Below, piece after piece: positions 15,447 through 36,759 of a stretch of DNA of 36,759 nt; positions within the stretch are counted from its first letter, which is position 1, and each line of letters opens with the position of its first letter. The notes under the pieces were generated by a model. That model searched no databases, was not told where the DNA came from, and saw nothing but the letters and a program-made list of their open reading frames with translations. The stretch lies in assembly GCA_021730945.1 (NCBI GenBank), contig JAKFYH010000065.1, positions 1-36,759 on the forward strand, read 5' to 3'. The position numbers and the translations under genes are program-made. This DNA is from Acidobacteriota bacterium. Its GTDB lineage: Bacteria; Acidobacteriota; Vicinamibacteria; Vicinamibacterales; UBA2999.

Positions 15447-15447
15447 T

Positions 15448-15522
15448 CGGGATCCGGGATCCGGGATCCGGGAGTCGGGAGTCGGAAATCGGAAAATCGG
15501 GACCCCGGACCCCGGACCCCGG
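15448..15522. repeat. Heptamer array (GGGATCC / GGGAGTC / GGACCCC), possible G-quadruplex
   Basis: The whole gap between the kbl start and the stop of the membrane-protein gene is built from 7-bp units: GGGATCC repeats, GGGAGTC variants, degraded units, then GGACCCC three times. On the plus strand, GGG runs at 449-451, 456-458, 463-465, 470-472 and 477-479 (add 15000) are separated by four bases each, which fits the standard G-quadruplex pattern. The kbl mRNA leader would be the C-rich complement. Confidence 0.9.
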
Positions 15523-19760: not shown

Positions 19761-19821
19761 ATCGGGGATCGGGGATCAGGGATCAGGGACCCGGGGTCCG
19801 GGATCCGGGATTCCGGGTCCG
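19761..19821. repeat. Heptamer array (ATCGGGG / ATCAGGG / ATCCGGG), possible G-quadruplex
   Basis: About eight units of 7-8 bp: ATCGGGG twice, ATCAGGG twice, then ACCCGGG, GTCCGGG, ATCCGGG and an 8-bp variant. It is the same family as 1-23 and 15448-15522. Runs of three or four G spaced 3-4 bases apart on the plus strand meet the usual G-quadruplex pattern. It sits in the divergent gap (19747-19944) between the aminotransferase and the VWA gene. The remainder of that gap is AT-richer, with TGTAA and TTACA arms around 19829-19850 that could be an operator. Confidence 0.85.
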
Positions 19822-21615: not shown

Positions 21616-21670
21616 TTACCCCGCGAGGACCCGCCGGGACGACACCAGAACCCGGACGGGAAGGCAACAC

Positions 21671-21809
21671 TTGACGGGGGGACACTACTTGTCGGGACCT
21701 TAAGTCTTGACGAGAAGTGCCTCCCGACAAGCACTTCCCTCCCGACAAGCATTTCCCTCCCGACCAGCGTTTCCCTCCCGACAAGAAGTGCCCTCCCGTC
21801 TGGTTTCAT
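21671..21809. repeat. 18-bp repeat array with inverted and direct parts
   Basis: Four good direct units of CCTCCCGACAAGCNNTTC type occupy 21720-21791, with a fifth decayed one to 21809. Before them, at 21671-21719, degenerate units read in the opposite orientation (CTTGACGGGG, CTTGTCGGGA) with the same 18-bp spacing. The two halves can pair: CTTGTCGGGA at 21688-21697 is the exact complement of 21722-21731. The array fills most of the gap between the OmpA gene and the glycosyltransferase. The same unit recurs at 30762-30858. Confidence 0.85.
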
Positions 21810-26951: not shown

Positions 26952-27018
26952 GGGTGCCCAGGGTGTGTACGGTGCCTAGGGGTGCGTACGGTGCCTAGGG
27001 GTGCGTACGGTGCCCAGG
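26952..27018. repeat. 19-bp tandem array between the S9 and DUF4412-like genes
   Basis: Three near-identical 19-bp copies of GGTGCGTACGGTGCCTAGG cover 26962-27018, preceded by a partial unit (26952-26961). It starts next to the TATAAT box of the DUF4412-like gene and ends 7 bp from the S9 stop codon. It could contain the -35 region of that promoter, which would put expression at the mercy of copy number. Confidence 0.85.
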
Positions 27019-27025
27019 GTGCCGG

Positions 27026-29500: not shown

Positions 29501-30718
29501 TCACGGGCTGGCGCCCGCCGCGGCGCCGGCAGCGCGGCCGGTGGCCCACGCCCATGCGAAGTTATGGCCGCCAATCGGGCCAAACGCGTCCAGGATTTCG
29601 CCGCAGAAGTAGAGGCCGGGGCACCGCCGGCTCTCAAGCGTTCGCGGCTCCACTTCGTCCAGGGCAACGCCACCGCCGGTGACCTCGGCCTTTTTGTAAC
29701 CTTCGTCACCGCTCACGGGCAGAATGTACGAGGTCAGGCGATCAATCAGCGCCAGCCGCTCGGTGCGTCGCAGGTCGCTGGTCCGCCGCTCGCGGGGGAC
29801 ACCGGCCTCGATCATCAAGCGTTCACCCAACCGCGCCGGCAGATGTTTGGCGAGGAGCGTGGCGATCAACGCTGAGGGCGCATCGAACTCAAGCTCCCAT
29901 GCCGCGGCATTGAGCGCCGACCACTGGGCCCGAATGGTCCGTCCACTTTCAGCGCGGCCTGGACGCGTCCTCACATGCGAGATATCCAACACGCTGGGTC
30001 CGCTGTACCCGCGATGGGTGAAGAGGAAGCCGCCGGAGGTCTCAACTGCGCGGGTGCCATCCTTCGCCCGCAATCGCACGTTCAGCGAGACGCCCGACAA
30101 GGCGGCGTGACCCGCGACCGGGTCGCCAAGCAGCGGCGTCAACGCCGGATACACCGGCACCATGCGATGACCAAGCCCGGCGGCGACCGTCAGACCGGTG
30201 CCGTCGCTGCCGGTCGCCGGTACCGACAATCCGCCGGTTGCCAGGACCACCCGCTCGGCGTGGAGATCGCCGCCGCCGGTCTGCAGCGAAAAGCCCGCGG
30301 CCGCCCGCTGAATCCCGATGACGCTGGTGTTGAACAGCATGCGCACGCCGCGCCGGCGTGCAAACGCGACCAGGCCGTCACGAATGTCCTTCGCCCGATT
30401 CGACTGGGGAAACAACTTGCCCGACTCCGCTTCGAGCGCCAGCGGAATGGCGAGGTCGCGCTCGAAGAAGGCTCGCTGCTCGTGCAGCGGCCACGACCGC
30501 AGCATGCCGCGCAGCAGGTGAGCCGGCGAATCGGTGACAAACCGTTCGGGCGCCAGCATTGAGGGCAAGACGTTACAGCGGCCGCCGCCGCTGATCAGGA
30601 TCTTCCGGCCGCCGTCGGCAGTGCGCTCAATCAACGTGACCTCGGCGCCGCCGCTCGCGGCAAACGCCGATGCGACCAGCCCCGCCGCGCCGCCGCCGAT
30701 TACCAACACAGATGACAT
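29501..30718 (-). CDS. HI0933/YhiN-family FAD-dependent oxidoreductase-like protein
   Basis: A 405-residue flavoprotein of the HI0933 family (function unknown; binds FAD). N-terminal Rossmann dinucleotide motif GGGAAGL, then ADGGRKILISGGGRCN, the ATGGLSVPATGSDGTG motif in the middle, GYSGPSVLDIS, and a C-terminal EVTGGGVALDE and GPIGGHNFAWAWATG. All regular family landmarks are present. ATG at 30716-30718 is chosen; the frame begins with GTG three codons earlier. No Shine-Dalgarno is visible because the start abuts a dispersed repeat. It is on the same strand as the M16 pair upstream and the S9 gene 36 bp downstream. Confidence 0.92.
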   Translation of the reverse strand: MSSVLVIGGGAAGLVASAFAASGGAEVTLIERTADGGRKILISGGGRCNVLPSMLAPERFVTDSPAHLLRGMLRSWPLHEQRAFFERDLAIPLALEAESGKLFPQSNRAKDIRDGLVAFARRRGVRMLFNTSVIGIQRAAAGFSLQTGGGDLHAERVVLATGGLSVPATGSDGTGLTVAAGLGHRMVPVYPALTPLLGDPVAGHAALSGVSLNVRLRAKDGTRAVETSGGFLFTHRGYSGPSVLDISHVRTRPGRAESGRTIRAQWSALNAAAWELEFDAPSALIATLLAKHLPARLGERLMIEAGVPRERRTSDLRRTERLALIDRLTSYILPVSGDEGYKKAEVTGGGVALDEVEPRTLESRRCPGLYFCGEILDAFGPIGGHNFAWAWATGRAAGAAAGASP

Positions 30719-30720
30719 CA

Positions 30721-30750
30721 GAGCCACAGATGACGCAGATGACGCAGATC
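30721..30750. repeat. Dispersed repeat (GATGACGCA)n at the start of the flavoprotein gene
   Basis: Two GATGACGCA units with flanking sequence; the first 20 bases are identical to those at 1514-1533. It lies directly upstream of the flavoprotein start codon and next to the 18-bp array, so it replaces the expected ribosome binding site region. Confidence 0.75.
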
Positions 30751-30761
30751 TCTACGAGACG

Positions 30762-30858
30762 TGTCCCGACAAGCGGTGCCCTCCCGACAAGCAGTGCCCT
30801 CCCGACAAGCGGTGCCCTCCCGACAAGCGGTGCCCTCCCGACAAGCGGTGCCCTCCCG
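30762..30858. repeat. 18-bp array (CCTCCCGACAAGCGGTGC)n, 5 units
   Basis: Five tandem 18-bp units (first one beginning TG instead of CC) plus a partial sixth. Units 3 to 5 are identical to each other and unit 2 differs by one base. On the minus strand, GGGAGGG repeats every 18 bases. The unit matches the array at 21720-21791, in particular CCTCCCGACAAG. The array ends 3 bp from the stop codon of the M16-like gene. It lacks spacers, so it is not CRISPR. Confidence 0.9.
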
Positions 30859-30861
30859 CCA

Positions 30862-32316
30862 TCATCTGAAGAGGCTATCGGTCGGAACCTGGATGACCGG
30901 ACCCAGGTTGAGCGCACGAATTCCGGCTTCGATCGCTTTCAAGTCGCCGACGACGACCACCGCCATTTTTTCGGGCTGGATGTAGCGCGCGGCGGCTCGC
31001 TGCAAGTCGGCGGCGGTGACCGCGGTCACGCGCGGCACGAAGTTGGCGAAGGTGGTCTCGGGAAGATTGTAGATGACCAGTTCCTCGAGCTTGCGAGCCA
31101 TGTCGCCGGTGGTCTCGAACTCACCCGGGAACCCCAGCGCCACGTAGTTGCGGGCCTTGGCCAGTTCATCGGCCGGTACCGGCGTCAGAATTCCGTTGAG
31201 CTCGTTGAAGAACTCCCTCACCGCATCAGCGGTCTTGTCGGTCTGGACGCCGGCGGCGGCAAGAAAGGGACCGGCCGACATGCGCATGTCAAACCCCGAG
31301 CTGGCGCCGTAGGCGTAGCCGTTCTTCTCGCGCAGGTTCTGGTTGAGACGCGACGTGAACGATCCGCCCAGCAGCGTGTTCAGCACTTCGAGGACCGCGT
31401 AGTCGGGTGTGGAGCGCGCGACGCCGACCCAGCCAATGCGAATCTGCGACTGTGCTGCCTCGGGCTTGTCGATCAGGTAGACCTGGCGCTTGTCGAGTTG
31501 CGGCGCGTTGGGCACCGCGGCGACGAGCGCCGCCATGCCCTCTGATTTCCACCCGCCGAACGCCTTCTCGAGCATCGGCAGTGCGGTGGCCGGTGTCAGG
31601 TCGCCGACCACGAGCAGCGTCGCGTTGTCGGGCCGGAAGTGCGAACGATAGAACGTTTTGAGATCGTCAACGGTGAGGGCTTCAATGCCGGCGGGCAGCC
31701 CGTTGGCCGGCGTGCCATAGCGGTGCGTCGGCCCGTAGATCATGCGCGGGAAGGCCAGTTGGACCAGGGCGCCGACGTTGTCACGCGCTTGCAGCAGGCC
31801 GGTGAGCCGCTCCTTGCGCAGCCGCTCGAGTTCGGTCGCCGGGAAGCTGGGGCGCAACGCCACGTCGGCCATCAGCGGCAGCGCATCCGCCAGTTTCGAG
31901 ACCGGGACCGACATGCGCACGGCCGAGGCGTCAAACGTGCTGCCGGTCGAGAGGTTGGCGCCGAGAAATTCGATGGCGTCGGCCAGATCGAGGGCCGACC
32001 GTGAGCCGGCGCCCTCGTCAAGCATGGCGGCCGTGAGGTTGCCGACCCCGTACTTGCCGATGGGATCGGCGGCACTGCCCGAGCGCACGATCAGGTTGAT
32101 CTGCGCCAGCGGCACTTCGTGGTGTTCCACCATCCACACGGCCAGGCCGTTCGACAACTGGTGTTTCTGGATGGCCGGCAGCTTCAACGACGGCGCCGGG
32201 CCAATGGGCGGCGGCTGCTTGCGGTCGGGTTGTTGCGCACCGAGCGTCGTCACCAACGTGACGACCAGCGTCAATCCGGCTAAAGCCGGACTCCACTTCT
32301 GCAGAGTCTTCTTCAT
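30862..32316 (-). CDS. M16-family peptidase-like protein, non-catalytic subunit
   Basis: A 484-residue exported protein (signal peptide about 1-27) of two M16 domains. The zinc-binding HxxEH motif is absent: the equivalent place reads GVGNLTAAMLDEGAG. The C-terminal half keeps the R-x-K-x-G-Y-A-Y motif (REKNGYAYG) that lines the substrate site in non-catalytic M16B partners. It therefore probably pairs with the catalytic subunit encoded just upstream (32313-33695), as in heterodimeric M16B peptidases (inference). Its ATG overlaps the stop of that gene as ATGA, 4 bp, so the two are translated together. Confidence 0.92.
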   Translation of the reverse strand: MKKTLQKWSPALAGLTLVVTLVTTLGAQQPDRKQPPPIGPAPSLKLPAIQKHQLSNGLAVWMVEHHEVPLAQINLIVRSGSAADPIGKYGVGNLTAAMLDEGAGSRSALDLADAIEFLGANLSTGSTFDASAVRMSVPVSKLADALPLMADVALRPSFPATELERLRKERLTGLLQARDNVGALVQLAFPRMIYGPTHRYGTPANGLPAGIEALTVDDLKTFYRSHFRPDNATLLVVGDLTPATALPMLEKAFGGWKSEGMAALVAAVPNAPQLDKRQVYLIDKPEAAQSQIRIGWVGVARSTPDYAVLEVLNTLLGGSFTSRLNQNLREKNGYAYGASSGFDMRMSAGPFLAAAGVQTDKTADAVREFFNELNGILTPVPADELAKARNYVALGFPGEFETTGDMARKLEELVIYNLPETTFANFVPRVTAVTAADLQRAAARYIQPEKMAVVVVGDLKAIEAGIRALNLGPVIQVPTDSLFR

Positions 32317-34626: not shown

Positions 34627-34631
34627 AGGAG

Positions 34632-34696
34632 TTGAAAGTTGAAAGTTGAAACTTGACAGTTGAAAATTTGACTATTGGAAACTTGACTGTTGACAG
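34632..34696. repeat. Heptamer array (TTGAAAG / TTGACAG-like), AT-rich
   Basis: Nine consecutive units of 7-8 bp that all begin TTG or TTTG (TTGAAAG twice, TTGAAAC, TTGACAG, TTGAAAA, then variants, TTGACTG, TTGACAG). It is unusually AT-rich for this genome and fills the divergent gap between the NhaR-like gene and purE. TTGACA and TTGAAA are -35-like hexamers, but none is at a normal spacing from the purE -10 box. Confidence 0.85.
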
Positions 34697-36435: not shown

Positions 36436-36759
36436 GTGATCCGCTTCGGGCCCTTCGAGATTGATCCGCGCACGTGGACGCTCGCTCGCGACGGGCAGCC
36501 GCTCGATCTGTCGCCCCGGCTGGTCGAGATCCTCGGCTACCTCGCCAGTCGCAGCGGCGTGATCGTGACTAAGGATGACTTGCTCGAGCGTTTCTGGCCG
36601 GGGGTCAACATCAGCGACAACACCCTGACGCGGGCGGTGGCCGACATTCGCAAGGCGCTCGGGGACTCGGCAACCGAACCAAAATACGTGCAGACTCTCG
36701 CCCGGCGCGGCTATCGCTTTGTTGGGGCTGGTGGGGCTGGTGGGGCTGGTGGGGCTGGT
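36436..36759 (+). CDS. Winged-helix (Trans_reg_C/CadC-like) regulator, N-terminal part, cut by the window end
   Basis: The first 108 codons of a gene that runs off the right edge. The reading frame from GTG 36436 encodes an OmpR/PhoB-type winged-helix domain (about 1-95), with the usual features: IRFGPFEIDP at the start, LSPRLVEILGYLASRSG, DDLLERFWPGV, TLTRAVADIRKALGD and a C-terminal RRGYRFV hairpin. After it come four GAG repeats made from a 9-bp tandem repeat. In this bacterial group such domains are often fused to TPR, kinase or WD-type regions, which cannot be seen here. The -10-like TAGAAT lies 7 nt upstream. Confidence 0.88.
   Translation, partial: MIRFGPFEIDPRTWTLARDGQPLDLSPRLVEILGYLASRSGVIVTKDDLLERFWPGVNISDNTLTRAVADIRKALGDSATEPKYVQTLARRGYRFVGAGGAGGAGGAG
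36724..36759 (+). repeat. In-frame 9-bp tandem repeat (GGGGCTGGT)n, 4 units to the edge
   Basis: Four perfect copies of GGGGCTGGT, each coding Gly-Ala-Gly, continue to the last base of the window. They are in frame right after the winged-helix domain and probably form a flexible linker whose length can vary by slippage. Confidence 0.85.

Follow-up and report, generated by a model that had tools for sequence, protein, structure and literature searches.

A genus-restricted family of oriented, mostly intergenic 18-bp G-rich tandem repeats in Acidobacteriota

Immediately behind an M16-family peptidase gene in the stretch of DNA analysed here (the window, 36,759 nucleotides), an 18-bp unit is repeated in tandem, and the same unit recurs about 9 kb away beside another gene. 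This arrangement raises the question of whether the two arrays belong to a dispersed family and, if so, what builds and orients its members. The window corresponds to contig 46 of a 67-contig, 4.73-Mb genome, coded G000 among nine genomes of the genus (G000 to G008). The features concerned are:

30764..30858, G-strand on the minus strand: focal 18-bp tandem array (TRF; model matches at 30782-30817 and 30818-30858)
30862..32316, minus strand: M16-family peptidase gene, lying 5' of the focal G-strand (Pfam PF05193 and PF00675; translation)
29501..30709, minus strand: HI0933-like flavoprotein gene, lying 3' of the focal G-strand (Pfam PF03486; gene call)
21720..21798, minus strand: second 18-bp array, more diverged (TRF, 4.4 copies, 86% matches)
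21657..21697, plus strand: decayed partner array converging on 21720-21798 (match to model R1, E 8.9e-5)

The focal array is real and far beyond chance. Running TRF on the window returned 5.3 copies at period 18 with 97% matches and a score of 183, confirming the clean tandem array proposed in the preliminary description, with 30764 as a better start than 30762. On the G-strand, CGGGA occupies six in-register positions, including both ends of the array, the first of them 3 bp past the M16 stop codon. The predicted start of the HI0933-like gene lies 54 bp from the array, although this start is approximate and an earlier GTG at 30727 is possible. Allowing at most one mismatch, CCTCCCGACAAG occurs eight times in the window (seven exact, one with a mismatch), always within the two 18-bp arrays, compared with a mean of 0.26 and a maximum of 2 in 100 shuffles. 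The unit is thus common to both arrays, as had been noted, and the focal one is the cleaner (97% versus 86% matches). The second array lies 33 bp upstream of a glycosyltransferase start codon with its G-strand antisense to that gene and, together with its decayed partner, forms a convergent pair (21638-21800) predicted to fold as a long hairpin (z -4.8). The window contained no RNA family match at Rfam gathering thresholds and no tRNA or tmRNA, and consensus searches of 30600-31000 around the focal array revealed no promoter or intrinsic terminator.

Genome-wide, the unit is far from confined to these two loci. A 12-mer of the unit is present in 113 exact copies (59 and 54 on the two strands; 0 and 1 for the backwards-pattern control), and the pattern TCGGGAGGG-N9-TCGGGA occurs 158 times, with none for its control. 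A two-unit, sequence-only model yielded 122 matches (E <=0.01) in 72 strand-specific clusters at 57 loci; as it scored 150 of 2840 first-look candidates, weak arrays may have been missed. The earlier suggestion of a dispersed unit was therefore borne out. Of the 134 contig ends, fifteen have an array cluster no more than 120 bp away. The assembly thus seems to be broken by arrays, and their count in this genome is probably low. The array-terminated ends include those of contigs 6, 45, 54, 55 and 59, and comparison with stretch L231 of G005 indicates that contigs 45 and 6 are probably adjacent, with an array between them.

Among the nine genus genomes, two-unit hits numbered 158 (G000), 71 (G005), 58 (G002), 8, 3, 2, 1, 0 and 0, with controls at 0. 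In a sample of the order, 5 of 149 genomes matched, namely three of this genus and two of another genus with a different filler; in a sample of the phylum, matches came from 8 of 396 genomes (four of this genus, one with the same different filler and three hits, and three with single hits), and the backwards control gave two single hits. Three of the nine genus genomes hence carry the family in abundance, and the samples searched hardly contain it beyond these. Among named relatives of the M16 gene, the best belong to acidobacterial metagenome-assembled genomes: a Lake Baikal pair with 88% and 86%, and RIFCSPLOWO2_12_FULL_67_14b with 79%. The coordinates of their hits coincide with those of G006, G003 and G001. 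Viral contigs, searched with a stricter pattern than the genomes, contained no match to the 18-mer, and neither did plasmids and phages in a blastn search with the low-complexity filter on, which masks simple repeats. Searches of the open-licence literature with 18-mer unit strings did not find the repeat described, the string matches listed all being unrelated by title, and CTTGTCGGGAGGG was absent from the papers among the matches listed.

The internal structure of the unit is informative about what is being maintained. Read on the G-strand, it consists of CGGGAGGG, an 8-bp filler (consensus CACTNCTT) and GT, such that GTCGGGAGGG forms a conserved core while the filler drifts. Where neighbouring units differ at one to three positions (138 pairs), the 8-bp core accounts for 19 of the differences, the filler for 248 and GT for 15. 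When the middle unit of a triple was left unconstrained and compared with agreeing neighbours, 139 triples with the core in both outer units showed differences in 5 of 1112 cells of the core and in 98 of 821 cells of the filler, and 30 triples with identical outer units had one core and 23 filler differences. Resolved by position, each G of the two G-runs accounts for 1 to 4 of the 282 differences, and C1, A5, G17 and C14 for 2, 5, 1 and 7, respectively, compared with 26 to 54 at positions 12, 13, 15, 16 and 9. C1, A5 and G17 thus vary about as little as the G-runs do, and C14 almost as little. Spacing is equally strict: in 283 kb of sequence chosen around arrays, 86 runs of at least four GGG were spaced at period 18, and at most six at any other period between 4 and 30. 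Fillers are more alike within arrays (similarity 0.746) than between them (0.583), as local duplication predicts. A quadruplex needs G-runs and not C1, A5, G17 or C14, so that quadruplex formation alone leaves the constancy of the core unexplained, which points more to sequence-specific recognition or core-dependent amplification than to a bare G-quadruplex. Any model must account for the constancy of the core across the units of redundant arrays. The drifting filler serves as an internal yardstick, showing that constraint spans about ten bases and not the G-runs alone, and makes the quadruplex directly testable against sequence-specific recognition.

Layout relative to genes was evaluated in the window and 55 further stretches of G000, with genes taken from a simple codon-based caller whose starts are approximate; for the relatives, 16 (G005), 19 (G002), 33 (G006) and 27 (G003) stretches were picked as a subset of the places listed by the searches. 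Of the 69 G000 arrays, eight are located within predicted genes, 18 have a neighbour on one side only owing to a sequence end and 43 are usable; in G005 and G002, 4 of 20 and 6 of 23 arrays, respectively, are in genes. The 18-mer is a genus-restricted, genome-wide and mostly intergenic tandem repeat family. Its orientation follows a firm rule of convergence. Wherever two arrays on opposite strands are neighbours within 3 kb, the one with the plus G-strand comes first (18/18 overall; 11/11 in G000, 4/4 in G005, 3/3 in G002), same-strand neighbours number four, and all 13 G000 loci with model clusters on both strands are convergent. Outward polarity, in turn, is not general. In G000, 23 arrays have 80 bp or more of free intergenic space, and for 19 of these the gene edge lying 5' of the G-strand is the nearer one (p 0.0026; median distances 15 bp and 151 bp on the 5' and the other side). 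The corresponding figures are 8/11 in G005, which is not significant, and 5/13 in G002, and over all 43 usable G000 arrays the split is 25 versus 17 with one tie. Arrays inside genes are antisense in 12 of 18 cases over the three genomes, a weak bias. A replication-strand signal of the KOPS or Chi type was rejected: array orientation agreed with local GC skew in 33/69, 8/20 and 10/23 cases, indicating no signal.

Four units is the commonest array size, with the terminal CGGGA counted as a unit (29/69 in G000, 10/20 in G005, 11/23 in G002). Arrays with an even number of CGGGA exceed those with an odd number in G000 (49 to 20) and, less markedly, in G005 (14 to 6), but not in G002 (12 to 11). 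When arrays within predicted genes are set aside, 5 of 16 in G005 and 8 of 17 in G002 sit at an orthologous gene edge that also carries a G000 array, so many arrays are not recent. Three sets of in-gene arrays common to species were recognized by eye, with drifted fillers (L099/L230/L251, L119/L246 and L126/L249). In L099, L230 and L251 the array lies within the same predicted gene of three species, antisense in each, so coding sequence tolerates the 18-bp unit.

The focal slot itself changes from species to species. An M16 orthologue with at least 73% identity is present in eight of the nine genus genomes, and a comparison by eye of the sequence following its stop codon found the 18-mer array in G000, a decayed 18-mer array in the same orientation in G002, a GGGGTCC heptamer array in G006, another short sequence without an array in G005 and no G-rich array in G003, G001, G004 and G008. 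The preliminary description considered the focal array the younger of the two. Its near-identical units and the lack of any G-rich array after the stop in five of the eight genus M16 orthologues agree with this, but the decayed array in G002 implies that the site may be old; the focal array would be either young or an old site that has re-expanded.

The heptamer in G006 belongs to a second family of G-rich arrays in the genus (GGGATCC, GGGGTCC and relatives), which is also represented in the window:

15447..15522, both strands: convergent pair of G-rich heptamer arrays (TRF 15447-15480 and 15500-15522; intergenic listing), filling the whole space between two genes
19761..19821, plus strand: G-rich heptamer array (TRF), beginning 18 bp from an antisense start codon

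Heptamer pattern counts, with backwards controls in brackets, were 80 (3) in G000, 173 (5) in G005, 194 (18) in G006, 236 (35) in G008 and 54 (11) in G003, and hardly or not above control in G007 (9; 7), G004 (5; 1), G001 (3; 16) and G002 (2; 2). In G006, polarity is outward in 15 of 16 cases and 10 of 12 opposite pairs converge, including all nine closer than 60 bp. These arrays resemble the 18-mers in their convergent pairs and outward polarity (G006), in a commonest size of four (25/49 and 19/38) and in occurring both in the window and in the focal slot of G006. They differ in their period of 7 and their sequence and, in G003, in lying mostly inside predicted genes (21/38) without convergence, opposite pairs being split two and two. 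GGG is invariant across 54 triples whose outer heptamers are identical, but GGG was also what these arrays had been found by. Stretch L321 (G003 contig 23, about 160-175 kb) carries six heptamer arrays in a row inside predicted genes, against the intergenic rule. Mutual replacement of 18-mer and heptamer in one slot, seen in four intergenic regions, was rejected as a rule, since about one case per comparison is expected under an assumed figure of about 1500 intergenic regions and no excess over chance emerges.

The closest known counterparts are the G-rich heptamer repeats of Xanthomonas and Nostoc (GGGAATC and GGGGA(C/T)T), described by Rehm et al. 2015 (PMC4692102). There, GGGAATC repeats are spread between genes, in Xanthomonas lying nearer the 5' ORF (28 versus 160 nt on average), and form convergent pairs (70 and 75 cases), with few paired repeats in Nostoc; four units is the commonest size, 83% of positions are common to two Xanthomonas species and quadruplexes formed in vitro, while neither a mobile partner nor a known function is reported. 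The 18-mers likewise are genome-wide tandem units with G-runs, mostly intergenic (57 loci; 8/69 in genes), with convergent inverted pairs, a four-unit mode, positions common to relatives and no mobile partner found. In contrast to the Xanthomonas heptamers, the 18-mer combines two G-runs with a variable filler, has constant non-G core positions and occurs in another phylum. The 5' proximity known from Xanthomonas gives a mixed picture, with 19/23 in G000, a non-significant 8/11 in G005 and failure in G002 (5/13), one of three genomes, and quadruplexes, formed in vitro there, are a prediction for the 18-mers, in 10 of 69 arrays. By definition, with period 18 and the core GTCGGGAGGG, the 18-mer is not a member of the GGGNATC-type heptamer class; even so, the family very probably works in the same way as the Xanthomonas repeats.

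TAACTGA direct repeats of Beggiatoaceae, Cyanobacteria and Bacteroidetes (MacGregor 2015; PMC4679880) also comprise many short intergenic tandem arrays of patchy distribution with no known mechanism of spread. Unlike the 18-mers they are not G-rich and lie just upstream of start codons, post-transcriptional regulation having been suggested (PMC4679880). New in the present case is an 18-bp unit with two G-runs and a barely varying core; the kind is already known, and the mechanism put forward below is one that we infer. Oriented G-repeats at gene borders, previously found in Xanthomonas and Nostoc without a function, thus have a similar layout in another phylum, and the other phylum, the other unit length and two families that differ in abundance among close species together point to a general cause.

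The candidate explanations were weighed against core, layout and distribution. The one that we favour, at a probability of roughly 0.4, is local amplification that depends on the core, harm to neighbouring genes setting limits to where arrays can lie. Stalling or misalignment at the G-rich core would lead to re-duplication of units, only units with an intact core would propagate, and arrays would be kept only at sites and in orientations that cause the adjoining genes least disturbance. Retention of the core in every unit of a redundant array would suit the propagation of intact units more than selection on the whole array. Amplification is further supported by the wide differences in abundance among related species (158 to 0 two-unit hits), by the variable state of the M16 slot (18-mer, decayed 18-mer, heptamer or none) and by convergence and outward polarity in G000. 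It is weakened by the loss of polarity in G002, its lack of significance in G005 and the overall 25 versus 17 split, by the presence of one core in all arrays and species, which selection for a binding site would explain equally well, and by the sites held in common with G005 and G002, which make many arrays old. VNTR or MIRU-type loci vary in copy number between isolates of one species; amplification of the 18-mer is deduced from one genome per species. Less probable, though a possibility to be taken seriously, is a polar transcription border, at which polymerase leaving a gene, whichever way it runs, would immediately make G-rich RNA over the array, with pausing, R-loops or quadruplexes curbing read-through, while polymerase entering would make C-rich RNA and pass. 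Convergence (18/18), outward polarity in G000 and among G006 heptamers (15/16), the weak antisense bias inside genes and the potential of convergent pairs such as 21638-21800 to form long hairpins all fit such a border, as does the strand and place dependence of quadruplex effects in E. coli described by Rehm et al. (PMC4692102). Against it stand the failure of polarity in G002, the lack of a terminator-like site at the focal array and the fact that a barrier between co-directional genes would cut operons; moreover, in a T7 study (PMC7341879) RNA output is reported to rise when the non-template strand carries a quadruplex motif, the opposite of a barrier.

Recognition of GTCGGGAGGG by a putative DNA- or RNA-binding protein, with sites arrayed for cooperative binding, would explain the constancy of C1, A5, G17 and nearly C14 as well as the exact 18-bp spacing. 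We nevertheless consider it rather unlikely, as G006, G008 and G003, with few or no 18-mers, bear heptamer arrays of another sequence and one protein could hardly read both. Amplification, transcription border and core-binding protein are favoured in that order, and the present data separate none of them. A broader version, likewise doubtful, would make GTCGGGAGGG the recognition site of a protein or a sequence-specific amplification process that builds and maintains oriented border arrays, with 18-mer and heptamer as interchangeable versions of one border-marking system swapped within the genus. A plain quadruplex element, in which G-runs alone matter, is improbable. The preliminary description had proposed quadruplexes on the minus strand, and two GGGAGGG motifs do provide four G-runs, the genus heptamer arrays have only G-runs and layout in common with the 18-mers, and four is the commonest array size in both families. 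Yet two units, with two G-runs each, would suffice, so the four-unit mode is not predicted; the loop between G-run pairs would span 11 nt, and the constant non-G positions exceed what quadruplexes alone explain. RNA folding with quadruplexes allowed placed one in the best fold of 10 of the 69 arrays, whereas the focal array adopted an ordinary fold, which 194 of 200 mononucleotide shuffles of its G-strand equalled or bettered. The least credible explanation is a mobile element of the REP/RAYT or MITE type. REP sequences associated with RAYT transposases are dispersed, intergenic and often arranged as inverted pairs, all of which holds for the 18-mers, but an 18-mer array is not a single palindrome, and as single-stranded DNA the focal array is less structured than 198 of 200 shuffles (z +2.5), with no stable Watson-Crick hairpin; only convergent pairs fold strongly. 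The RAYT partner envisaged at the outset received no support: PF01797 counts, which pool RAYTs and other Y1 transposases, are 5 in G000, 6 in G005, 1 in G002 with its 58 two-unit hits and 13 in G008 with none, and so do not track array numbers across the genus. Of the five Y1 genes of G000, one has an array at 1047 bp, three are separated by 40 to 97 kb from the closest array of their contig and one is on an array-free contig. The lack of matches in viral contigs (stricter pattern) and in plasmids and phages (blastn, filter on) likewise speaks against mobility.

The window contains further repeats beside the two G-rich families. A dispersed period-9 repeat (CAGATGACG / CATCTGTGT) is found at 1520-1541 and at 30727-30749, where it adjoins the focal array and extends into the predicted coding-sequence start of the HI0933-like gene; it also adjoins another 18-mer array (right end of L018) and persists in relatives without the 18-mer (M16 slots of L140 and L142). 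A third type of array, intergenic and of period 19 (GGTGCCCAGGGGTGCGTAC), lies between two minus-strand genes at 26953-27019, and an AT-richer intergenic array (AGTTGAA / GAAACTTGACTGTTG) separates divergent genes at 34630-34692. Finally, a perfect 9-bp repeat, TGGGGCTGG, is present in 4.1 copies at 36723-36759, reaching the contig end within a predicted open gene.
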